Shown here piece by piece: positions 32,661 through 60,278 of a DNA stretch of 64,000 bases (the stretch's first letter is position 1; every line of letters starts with the position of its first letter). The notes under the pieces were generated by a model, which did not search any database, was not told the DNA's origin, and was given only the letters and a program-made list of their open reading frames with translations. The DNA is from Parasaccharibacter apium (GTDB taxonomy: Bacteria > Pseudomonadota > Alphaproteobacteria > Acetobacterales > Acetobacteraceae): the NCBI RefSeq assembly GCF_002592045.1, contig NZ_MEJG01000001.1, forward strand, positions 62,001-126,000. Reading direction: 5' to 3'. Both the position numbers and the translations under genes were made by a program.

Positions 32661-32737
32661 GCACCCGTAGCTCAATTGGATAGAGCACCAGACTACGAAT
32701 CTGGGGGTTGGAGGTTCGAGTCCTCCCGGGTGCACCA
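32661..32737 (+). tRNA. tRNA-Arg (ACG), copy 1
   Basis: This 77-nt cloverleaf has acceptor GCACCCG/CGGGTGC, D arm GCTC..GAGC, anticodon stem CCAGA/TCTGG, loop CTACGAA with anticodon ACG at 32695-32697, T arm with GGTTCGAGTCC, and encoded CCA. A34 would be converted to inosine to read CGU, CGC and CGA. Confidence 0.96.
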
Positions 32738-32767: not shown

Positions 32768-32844
32768 GCACCCGTAGCTCAATTGGATAGAGCACCAGAC
32801 TACGAATCTGGGGGTTGGAGGTTCGAGTCCTCCCGGGTGCACCA
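32768..32844 (+). tRNA. tRNA-Arg (ACG), copy 2
   Basis: This is an identical 77-nt copy of the preceding tRNA, starting 107 bp after it. The 30-bp spacer holds a small ATGCCC/GGGCAT stem that may guide processing. No plus-strand terminator is visible after CCA, and the stop codon of the convergent glycosyltransferase-like gene lies only 6 nt away. Confidence 0.96.
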
Positions 32845-56298: not shown

Positions 56299-56637
56299 TT
56301 AGCTGGGCATCATATTCATCTGGGCATCCCAGAGAACAAACAGATAACCAGCAATCACGATCAGCACCATCAAAGCAGTCACAATGAAAGCTGCCAGATT
56401 ATGCCGCTGCGACAAGCTCTTCACCCCCATATGGAGGAAGAAGATCAGATGAACAACCACCTGAATGGCAGCCAACACACCAAGGATGGCAATCGTCTGC
56501 CAGAAGGAGAAAGCCTTGCTCAAGACAGTGGCAAAAGAAGCCACTGTCAGGATAACAGCAAGAACAAACCCGACAATATAGGAGCCGTAAGAGCCGTGGC
56601 TCTCACCTTCGTGCGATGTCATATGATTTTCGCTCAT
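56299..56637 (-). CDS. cyoD: Cytochrome o ubiquinol oxidase subunit IV
   Basis: The 112-aa protein has three membrane helices (GSYIVGFVLAVILTVASFATVL; FWQTIAILGVLAAIQVVVHLIFFLHM; LAAFIVTALMVLIVIAGYLFVLW) and the SLSQRHN loop. It stabilises the oxidase and helps assembly. The start ATG 56637 overlaps the cyoC stop by one base. Confidence 0.94.
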   Translation of the reverse strand: MSENHMTSHEGESHGSYGSYIVGFVLAVILTVASFATVLSKAFSFWQTIAILGVLAAIQVVVHLIFFLHMGVKSLSQRHNLAAFIVTALMVLIVIAGYLFVLWDAQMNMMPS

Positions 56638-57251
56638 TAGACAACACTCCCCAGGTAGACGAAGGAAAAGACACAAATCCAAACGATATCAAGGAAATGC
56701 CAGAATAAGCTCAGGCATGTCAGTTTCGTTTGCATCCGGCTGCTAAGCCCCTGCTTGCCCATAATCTGGAAGAACAGAACGAACATCCAGATCAGGCCAA
56801 TTGTGACATGCAGCCCATGTGTCCCCACCAGCGTAAAGAAGGATGACAAGAACGCGGATTGATCCGGCCCTGCCCCACGAGCCACAAGCTCATGGAACTC
56901 TTTAATCTCAAGAGTGACAAAGGAAACACCAAGGATGAAGGTCAGCAATAGCCAAACCAACACGGCACCTTTGTTCTTCTTATGCGCATTGATGGACGCA
57001 AAGCCATAGGTGATGGAGGAAAGCAACAAGATGGCTGTTTCGATCTCAACATTCTTGATGTCGAACAGCTCTTTCCCTGTCGGTCCCCCAGCAAAGTGAT
57101 GGCAAAGTGTAGCAAAGACGGCAAATAACGTGCCGAAAATGATACAATCTGTCATCAAATAGACCCAGAAACCAAAAATTGTGGTTTCTTGCTGATGATG
57201 CTCATGCTCCTCGCTATGAGCAACGGGCGCGTGCATTGTGTCGTAAGACAT
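56637..57251 (-). CDS. cyoC: Cytochrome o ubiquinol oxidase subunit III
   Basis: The 204-aa protein has five membrane helices: FGFWVYLMTDCIIFGTLFAVFATL, ETAILLLSSITYGFA, AVLVWLLLTFILGVSFVTLE, SFFTLVGTHGLHVTIGLIWMFVL and SLFWHFLDIVWICVFSFVYL. These match E. coli CyoC. The soluble N-terminus is His-rich (HAPVAHSEEHEHHQQE). ATG 57251 is 11 nt from GGGAGG; ATG 57260 is only 2 nt away. Confidence 0.93.
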   Translation of the reverse strand: MSYDTMHAPVAHSEEHEHHQQETTIFGFWVYLMTDCIIFGTLFAVFATLCHHFAGGPTGKELFDIKNVEIETAILLLSSITYGFASINAHKKNKGAVLVWLLLTFILGVSFVTLEIKEFHELVARGAGPDQSAFLSSFFTLVGTHGLHVTIGLIWMFVLFFQIMGKQGLSSRMQTKLTCLSLFWHFLDIVWICVFSFVYLGSVV

Positions 57252-57269
57252 GGTTTTCATCGCCTCCCT

Positions 57270-57721
57270 TTACTCTGCCGCCTGAGCAGCAGCAAGCCGC
57301 TTGGCAAAAGCTTCTTCATCAGCGCGGATCTCCTCTACCGTTACGTAGAAGTCCACATCCAAATTCGCACTACGATGAACCAGCGCAAAGAAGGATACGA
57401 TCATCCCCGCAACAACGGCCCACCAGATATGCCAGACCAACGCAAAGCCAATAACCAGCGCACAGGCACCCAAAACAGGACCAATGGCAGAATATTTTGG
57501 CATATGGATCGGCTCCAGCTCAGCTAGTGGCGCTGGGCGTCCCAGTTCCTTCTCGATATGGAATGTATCCAAACCGCGAACGACTGGCAGACGAGCAAAG
57601 TTATAATGCGGTACAGGGGAAGGCAAAGACCATTCCAACGTACGGCCTGAGCCCCAGTTATCGCCTGTAAGGTCAAGTGCATCCGGCTTCTTATTCACAG
57701 CGTCAAACGCTGCAAAAACAA
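57270..57721 (-). pseudogene. cyoB: cyoB 3' portion, in a shifted frame
   Basis: Directly downstream of the T-rich site, the other frame reads [20 protein letters not shown]...RTLEWSLPSPVPHYNFARLP, matching the CyoB stretch [25 protein letters not shown]. It continues through EPIHMPKYS and two membrane helices to a natural stop. About 150 codons are open and conserved, so the loss of frame is recent, a base-calling error, or tolerated by recoding. It has no start of its own at the junction. Confidence 0.75.
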
Positions 57722-59268
57722 AATTGGATAACCTGACAAGCCACACCAGCAGCCAGAACGAACACACCAACACAAGCCACCAGCAGCCAAGGGTGCCAGT
57801 TCGGATTGTCATAATGGTTCATACGGCGGGTCATCCCCTCCAGACCAACAACATAGAGCGGCATAAAGGACAGATAGAAACCAACGAACCAAAAACGGAA
57901 CGCCCATTTGCCCCATACATCACGCATCTTGAAGCCGAAAGCCTTCGGGAACCAGTAGCTCAGACCAGCGACATAACCAAAGAACACACCACCGATAATC
58001 ACGTTATGGAAGTGCGCCACCAAGAAGAGGGAGTTATGAATCACCCAGTCCGCTGCAGGCATCGCCATCATCACACCAGTCATACCACCGATGGAGAAGG
58101 TGATCATGAAGCCGACAATCCAGTTCATTGGACCTTCGAAGCGTACACGCCCCTTATACATGGTGAAGAGCCAGTTGAAGATCTTCACACCTGTCGGCAC
58201 AGCGATGAACATCGTCATAATACCGAAGAAGGTGTTTACATCCGCACCAGAGCCCATCGTAAAGAAGTGATGCACCCATACAATGCTACCCAGGAAGGTA
58301 ATAATCCCCGTTGCGATAACCATCGTGGCATAACCAAAGAGAGGCTTGCCAGAGAAGGTCGCTGCAATTTCGGAAAATACACCAAAAGCAGGCAGAATAA
58401 GGATGTAAACTTCAGGATGGCCCCAAGACCAGATCAGGTTGAGGTAGAGCATAACACTACCACCACCATCATTGGTGAAGAAGTGCATCCCCAAATAACG
58501 ATCCAACGCCAGCAATGCCATGGAGACCGTCAAGACCGGGAAGGTCGTCAGGATCATGATGCACGCGAAGAAGGCTGTCCATGTAAAGACAGGGATGTGC
58601 ATCCACTTCATGCCGGGGGCGCGCAATTTAACAATAGTTGTTAGGAAGTTCATCCCTGTCAGCAGCGTCCCGATACCGGAAATCTGCACAGACCAGATGT
58701 AATAATCCACACCAACGCCAGGGTTAAACTGCAACTCGGAGATCGGCGGGTAGCCGAGCCAACCAACATTGGAGAACTCACCAATGAAGAGAGACACATT
58801 GATGAGAATGGCACTAACCAACGTCATATAAAAGCTGATTGAGTTAATCAGCGGGAATGCAACGTCGCGCGCACCAATTTGCAAAGGCACCACAAAATTG
58901 AACAAAGCCTGCATCATCACCATGGCCATGAAGAAAATCATGATCGTACCATGGGCAGAAAAGACCTGGTCGTAATGGTGCGGTGGTAGATAACCAGGGT
59001 TACCTGCGTAAGCAAGGGCAAGCTGTGTACGCATCATCAACGCATCGGCAAAGCCACGCACAAGCATGACAAGGCCAAGAATAACGTACATGATGGCGAG
59101 CTTCTTATGGTCAACGGTGGTTAACCACTCGCGCCACAGATAACCCCATTTTTTGAAGTAAGTGACTGCCGCAAGGACGGCAATCCCGATCACGGCCACA
59201 CCAATAAATGTACCAACTAGAATTGGCACATCATACGGTATGGCAGAAAGGGTAAGTTTTCCGAGCAT
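57703..59268 (-). CDS. cyoB: Cytochrome o ubiquinol oxidase subunit I (frame-interrupted)
   Basis: Subunit I carries the catalytic centre (low-spin heme, high-spin heme-CuB). Conserved landmarks are [21 protein letters not shown] with a heme His, [13 protein letters not shown] with the CuB His and cross-linked Tyr, VWVHHFFT with two CuB His, and [13 protein letters not shown] with the heme ligands. All 12 core helices lie in this frame. After VACQVIQF the frame hits TGA at 57703-57705, losing the C-terminal helices present in the +1 frame. Joined, the product would be about 665 aa (E. coli 663). ATG 59268 is preferred over GTG 59286. Confidence 0.9.
57714..57723 (-). other. Frameshift site in cyoB
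   Basis: The coding strand reads TTTT G TTTTT here. Removing one T from either run joins the two halves as QFVFAAFD or QFCFAAFD. A +1 shift (skipping one base) is therefore needed for full-length CyoB. Confidence 0.8.
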
Positions 59269-59282
59269 CTTTAGATCAGTCC

Positions 59283-60278
59283 TCACATGCCGGTATTAGA
59301 AGGCGCAGCCATATGGGAGTCAGAATGCATGTCCATAGGCATATTGCCCATAGGTTTGCTATCTTTCTCATGGGCTTTGCTGCCAACATTGTATTTTGCA
59401 ACAATGCTTTCAAACAACCCAGACTGCACGCTGGAGAAATACAGAACAGGAGCCGGTTTCGGTGCGACCTCGTTAGAGATAGCCGGCGGCGCCTGGTATT
59501 TCGGATAGCTTTGTGAGTCCAGTGCCTCTTTAGCTACGAACGGATTTTCACTGTTGTGGACGCTCTGCACCCATGCATCAAACTGCTCTTGGGGCATAGC
59601 AATCGTACGGAAGCGCATATCGGAGAAGCCTGGCCCTGTATATTGAGCAGCCTCACCCTGATAATTACCCGGACGGCTTGCAAGCAAGTGGAGCTGTGTC
59701 TCCATACCCGCCATGCTGTAGATCTGAGACCCAAGCTGGGGGATGAAGAAGGATGTCATCACACTGTCAGACGTAATCCGGAAATCCAGAGGTGTCTTTG
59801 TGGGGACATCAAGCTCATTGATGGTAGCAATCCCAAGGTCTGGGTAAATGAACAACCATTTCCAGTCCAGAGAGACCACTTCAACACGGAGCGGTTTCGC
59901 ATCAGGTGCCCCAACTTTAGCCAGCATCTCTTTAGAGATTGGCTTATATGGGTCGTAATAATGCGTACTCCAATAATTAAATCCACTCAAAACAAGAATA
60001 ATGAGAATGGGTACACCCCAAATAAACACTTCAATCTTGTTTGAGTGTGACCAGTTCCGTAAATATTCCGCCTTCTCATTAGATGCCCGATACTTCCAAG
60101 CAAATATAAGAGTCGCAATGATTACCGGAACCACAACGCACATCATGACGGCCCATTCAAGCACCATCATGTCGCGATTACCTTCCCCGATCGGACCTGC
60201 AGGTTGAAGCAGATCAACCGTACAGCCTGACAGCATTAATGCAGGCAACGCCGGGAAAAATCGCAAGAGTCTTTTCAT
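59283..60278 (-). CDS. cyoA: Cytochrome o ubiquinol oxidase subunit II
   Basis: The 331-aa lipoprotein subunit has signal and lipobox LMLSGC, two membrane helices ([45 protein letters not shown]) and a cupredoxin domain with [40 protein letters not shown]. The CuA Cys/His set is missing, as expected for a quinol oxidase. The C-terminal tail is Met/His-rich ([13 protein letters not shown]). It heads cyoABCD; upstream lie palindromes in a 433-bp gap. Confidence 0.94.

Follow-up and report, generated by a model that had tools for sequence, protein, structure and literature searches.

In the structure of the E. coli cytochrome bo3 quinol oxidase, the tail helices of CyoB stand in for the two N-terminal COX3 helices of cytochrome c oxidase. 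Programmed +1 frameshifting is described for prfB and for the mitochondrial genes cox1 and nad3, and transcriptional slippage is usually reported at homopolymers of about 9 bases or more. Replication slippage is uncommon in runs shorter than four bases, and stretches in which a T run, a G and another T run follow each other are misread by some sequencing chemistries. Here, we analysed a window of 64,000 nucleotides from the draft assembly (1,850,363 bases in 13 contigs) of a bee-associated acetic acid bacterium of the genus Bombella, in which cyoB is split at a stretch of this kind. A literature search, judged by its listings, returned no published report of this frameshift. In the main text of PMC9147383, the word 'frameshift' is absent, and the single use of 'frame shift' concerns an alcohol dehydrogenase that belongs to a different strain.

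The window locus has the order cyoABCD on the minus strand, with the Pfam domains COX2/COX_ARM, COX1, COX3 and COX4_pro in succession. The gene cyoA (59283..60278) is open and codes for 331 aa with PF00116 and PF06481; cyoC (56637..57260) is open with 207 aa and matches PF00510 (COX3) at profile positions 65-255 of 258 only; cyoD (56299..56682) is open and matches PF03626, its start being called at a TTG at 56682 with an in-frame ATG 15 codons in. The 5' part of cyoB, referred to as frame 0, spans 57703..59268 on the same strand and codes for 521 aa from the ATG at 59268 or 527 aa from a GTG at 59286. Its product matches all 436 of the 436 profile positions of PF00115 (COX1) and aligns to subunit I of cytochrome bo3 (1fft_A) with an E-value of 8e-228, ending where E. 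coli residue 516 aligns, whereas the intact CyoB of a conspecific genome (G040) aligns with its residues 7-657 to residues 1-647 of the 663 of 1fft_A (E 4.9e-262). The histidines H112, H290, H339, H340, H425 and H427, whose roles as haem and CuB ligands we assume from E. coli CyoB, all precede the break and are invariant in 18 aligned sequences, from which L074, with three codons from match start to stop, had been excluded. The statement of the sequence-only reading that the first frame holds all haem and CuB ligands and stops at 57703 is thus borne out. By its COX1 domain, these histidines and the operon context, the gene codes for subunit I of a cytochrome bo3 quinol oxidase. In the window as a whole, the only matches to Rfam at gathering thresholds were two tRNA genes of identical sequence on the plus strand (32661-32734 and 32768-32841), 33 bases apart.

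The change of frame was placed by reading the sequence and by comparison with relatives at a T4-G-T5 stretch at 57714..57723 on the minus strand. The coding-strand sequence is CAA TTTT G TTTTT GCA, with T4 at 57723-57720, the G at 57719 and T5 at 57718-57714, and frame 0 ends just past this stretch in a TGA at 57705-57703, the final five residues of its product (CFCSV) being foreign to CyoB. The 3' part of cyoB lies in the +1 frame at 57270..57719 (minus strand; 150 codons including the stop, 149 residues) and encodes the end of helix XII, a loop and helices XIII-XIV. Its translation is 97% identical to residues 518-664 of the intact G040 CyoB, so the match beyond the break is not a chance one, and the two parts add up to the normal length of CyoB, which in G040 is 671 aa when counted from the GTG. 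Re-reading of the minus-strand frames confirmed the +1 split and its coordinates as first described, and the claims that about 150 codons are intact in the +1 frame and that the sum equals the normal length held as well.

The locus resembles that of E. coli CyoB (1FFT chain A) in gene order and metal-ligand histidines and differs from it in that helices XIII-XIV are out of frame past the equivalent of residue 516: instead of sharing the frame of the COX1 core, they are found in the +1 frame only. For the limits of the helices, and for these only, we used an AlphaFold model of the intact ESL0385 CyoB (18 sequences; mean pLDDT of 67, i.e. moderate confidence). The model predicts a helix at residues 498-530 followed by helices at 601-617 and 621-640, and by these limits the break comes after residue 522, in the terminal part of the first of these helices, and if the base is real, the two that follow are lost.

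The break lies close to where helix XII ends, with the COX1 core on one side and helices XIII-XIV on the other. This is a natural module boundary, and the match of CyoC to COX3 only from position 65 is consistent with the CyoB tail standing in for COX3 helices. Both features would suit an enzyme in which the core encoded by frame 0 and the last two helices are made separately and assemble into a working complex. The candidate restart for the latter piece (142 aa) would be a GTG in the +1 frame at 57696..57698 on the minus strand, four bases past the TGA of frame 0; inspection by eye revealed no Shine-Dalgarno sequence upstream of it. Against such a split enzyme, core and tail form one frame in 80 of 80 loci examined (the best 80 of at least 593), where 138-158 codons follow the match, and also in the 10 other copies of the genus, and the change is at most as old as the strain. 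We therefore regard a working enzyme split in this way as highly improbable. That bo3 is caught here in the act of gene fission, with the tail supplied by restart at the GTG at 57698 or by leaky +1 slippage on TTT-T and a working complex of five polypeptides as the outcome, is likewise a very unlikely proposition.

The comparison of the T run with that of close relatives, which the sequence-only reading had asked for, was carried out on 11 Bombella genomes including the source assembly. In one set of 17 rows, three (L005, L007 and L013) turned out to be wrong-strand frames and were set aside. In all 10 other genomes, cyoB is one uninterrupted frame of 674-690 codons from stop to stop. Counted from the same Cys codon, the stop follows after 155 codons in nine of these 10 genomes as opposed to 11 codons in the source assembly; the tenth genome, G003, has a 690-codon open frame that is unmatched by the local pattern. 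Over 2,017 bases, cyoB of G040 has a single synonymous substitution relative to that of the source, and its T run is one base shorter (T3 instead of T4). A 28-base string spanning the site occurs once in the source assembly and is absent from G040 and from G009, another genome of the comparison. The extra T is private to the source assembly among the genomes compared, and a species-wide or genus-wide trait is ruled out by the open cyoB in the conspecific G040 and nine other members of the genus. Since G040 differs by only one synonymous base, any change is too young for decay of the codons after the break to inform on error, lesion or recoding. The rest of the gene has barely diverged from the intact conspecific copy, as is expected of a young pseudogene, and this fits an error equally well.

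The sequence-only reading had offered a recent lesion, a base-calling error and recoding as explanations, of which the first two survive and the third is disfavoured. Recoding would mean that slippage of ribosomes or RNA polymerase on the T runs yields some full-length CyoB. Judging from the codons, there are two sites (TTT TGT and TTT TGC) where a T follows TTT and tRNA-Phe could re-pair in the +1 frame, and a +1 shift would join the two cyoB frames as in the programmed cases. In addition, a 10-bp hairpin lies 3' of the T runs, with z-scores in two window folds of -3.0 (1 of 200 shuffles as stable) and -1.3 (22 of 200). However, the same hairpin is also present in G040, whose cyoB requires no shift (z -1.3 in that fold), and the codons in the A-site are sense codons and not stops. 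The runs of 4 and 5 bases fall short of the length of about 9 for transcriptional slippage, which was rejected as a candidate on this count. In contrast to programmed +1 frameshifting, there is no stop in the A-site, no conserved stimulator and no conservation of the break, which is found in one assembly only while 10 of 10 other genus genomes are open, so that nothing has been selected and the break cannot be an evolved recoding programme. Given an unconserved break, short T runs and relatives that can all do without a shift, we consider recoding very doubtful. Accidental leakage to full-length CyoB would be possible.

The reading that we favour, with a probability of roughly 0.6, is a one-base consensus error in the draft assembly. 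The extra T would be a product of the sequencing or assembly step rather than of the cell, and the true cyoB of the strain would be a normal gene of 671 codons like that of the conspecific G040. This reading was weighed by counting one-base breaks in the source assembly (G000) and in G040, using G009 as neutral reference. Sequence divergence between the two assemblies is about 0.9-1% (measured over 64 and 224 kb), although cyoB itself shows only the one synonymous substitution and the extra T. Length differences that change the frame number 26 in the 224 kb and five in a further 60 kb. Of 236 ORFs with coverage in both strains (181 + 55; 284 kb sampled), three were frame-broken in G000 only and none had a clearly internal break in G040 only. 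The three are cyoB (T3 to T4), an mltA-type lytic transglycosylase (A7 to A6) and a DUF815 ATPase (A2 to A1), each by a run-length change of one base. The mltA-type gene (PF03562 and 3D domain) is broken at G000:C1:141276 (L140:15276) and the DUF815 gene (PF05673) near codons 44-51 at G000:C1:222256 (L144:16256), and both are one frame in G040 and in G009.

Several entries were set aside in this count. Five of eight first listed as coding (29659, 301121, 357852, 114797 and 219828) lie within the first 2-15 residues and were not counted, and one ORF of 584 codons that is interrupted by a stop in G000 alone was left out as a probable artefact, as it looks antisense by eye and 309 residues of its G040 copy match no Pfam family. 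Weak short ORFs of 60-70% identity were likewise set aside. Looser candidates in G040 are an 898-codon frame with stops among its first 23 residues and an indel assigned to this strain at C1:81025, which may break a 104-codon ORF near its end; on such looser terms, the count of G000 versus G040 is three against one or two. Three versus none would arise by chance about 1 in 8 times at equal rates, so the excess of private breaks in G000 is suggestive, not significant. The ORFs that separate inside from outside had been taken from G040, which hides breaks in that strain, and the recount used G009. Outside conserved ORFs, nine frame-changing differences were assigned to G000 and seven to G040, with seven more without assignment. 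As these are about even, the excess of G000 is one of coding sequence, the very place where real differences should be rarest under selection. Two further length differences between the two assemblies were noted: a 30-base in-frame repeat difference at G000:C2:313876 (L146:13876), with a frame of 316 codons versus 306 in G040, and overlapping frames of 368 and 320 codons at G000:C1:244864 (L145:18864) versus one 630-codon frame in G040, for which no counterpart was found in the stretch of G009 compared.

Two of the three changes affect runs of fewer than four bases, in which slippage during replication is uncommon, and this counts for a consensus error. The break is private to one assembly that carries other private one-base run-length breaks, as expected of errors, and real mutations would fit this pattern also. 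Against an error stand the small counts of three versus none and the possibility of real losses, as cyoB, mltA and DUF815 may each be dispensable here. An error in a run of three or four T would furthermore be unlikely with high-coverage Illumina reads; searches of the literature did not reveal how the assembly had been sequenced. No sign of a mutator was seen in the source genome, judged on mutS and mutL, whose frames are open (899 and 645 codons).

The alternative to a consensus error that deserves most weight is a real, recent frameshift private to the strain, giving a 521-aa CyoB without helices XIII-XIV and a lost or impaired bo3, with cytochrome bd as fallback. This is how the deposited sequence reads, the change is confined to one strain, and a second quinol oxidase is open in the genome: cydA and cydB are adjacent open frames on contig C2, coding for a CydA of 471 aa (PF01654) and a CydB of 339 aa (PF02322). 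In Gluconobacter oxydans, the absence of the bo3 genes leads to a severe growth defect according to PMC4869267, which cites Richhardt 2013 for this, a phenotype that implies viability and to this extent speaks for a real mutation. On the other hand, none of the 10 relatives has lost the open frame of cyo, two of 11 genus genomes are without a CydA match and retain cyoB, and the breaks in mltA and DUF815 are equally well covered by errors. We regard a real mutation as possible, though we would not favour it. The description of Cyo as the sole visible terminal oxidase holds within the window and fails for the genome, where open cydA and cydB on another contig rule it out. Similarly, the warning that the C-terminal helices would be lost is right in that helices XIII-XIV are out of frame, but the stake is smaller than had been feared, as bd is open and the COX1 core is complete. 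If the base is real, the truncated protein would keep the whole COX1 core, which might fold, and would lack the last two helices.

Taken as biology, the split of cyoB is ordinary. It shares with strain-private frameshift pseudogenes and draft-assembly indels that one base is concerned in one assembly, that the relatives are open and that two similar breaks are present, and we saw no feature that sets the window cyoB apart from them; an error is the most likely cause, followed by a young truncating mutation of one strain. The finding is mainly a caution, as cyoB would pass as the pseudogene of a proton-pumping oxidase, yet it is whole in a conspecific genome. If the base is real, the strain would represent a naturally occurring bo3 truncation that relies on cytochrome bd, and would be useful for studying the role of helices XIII-XIV of CyoB.
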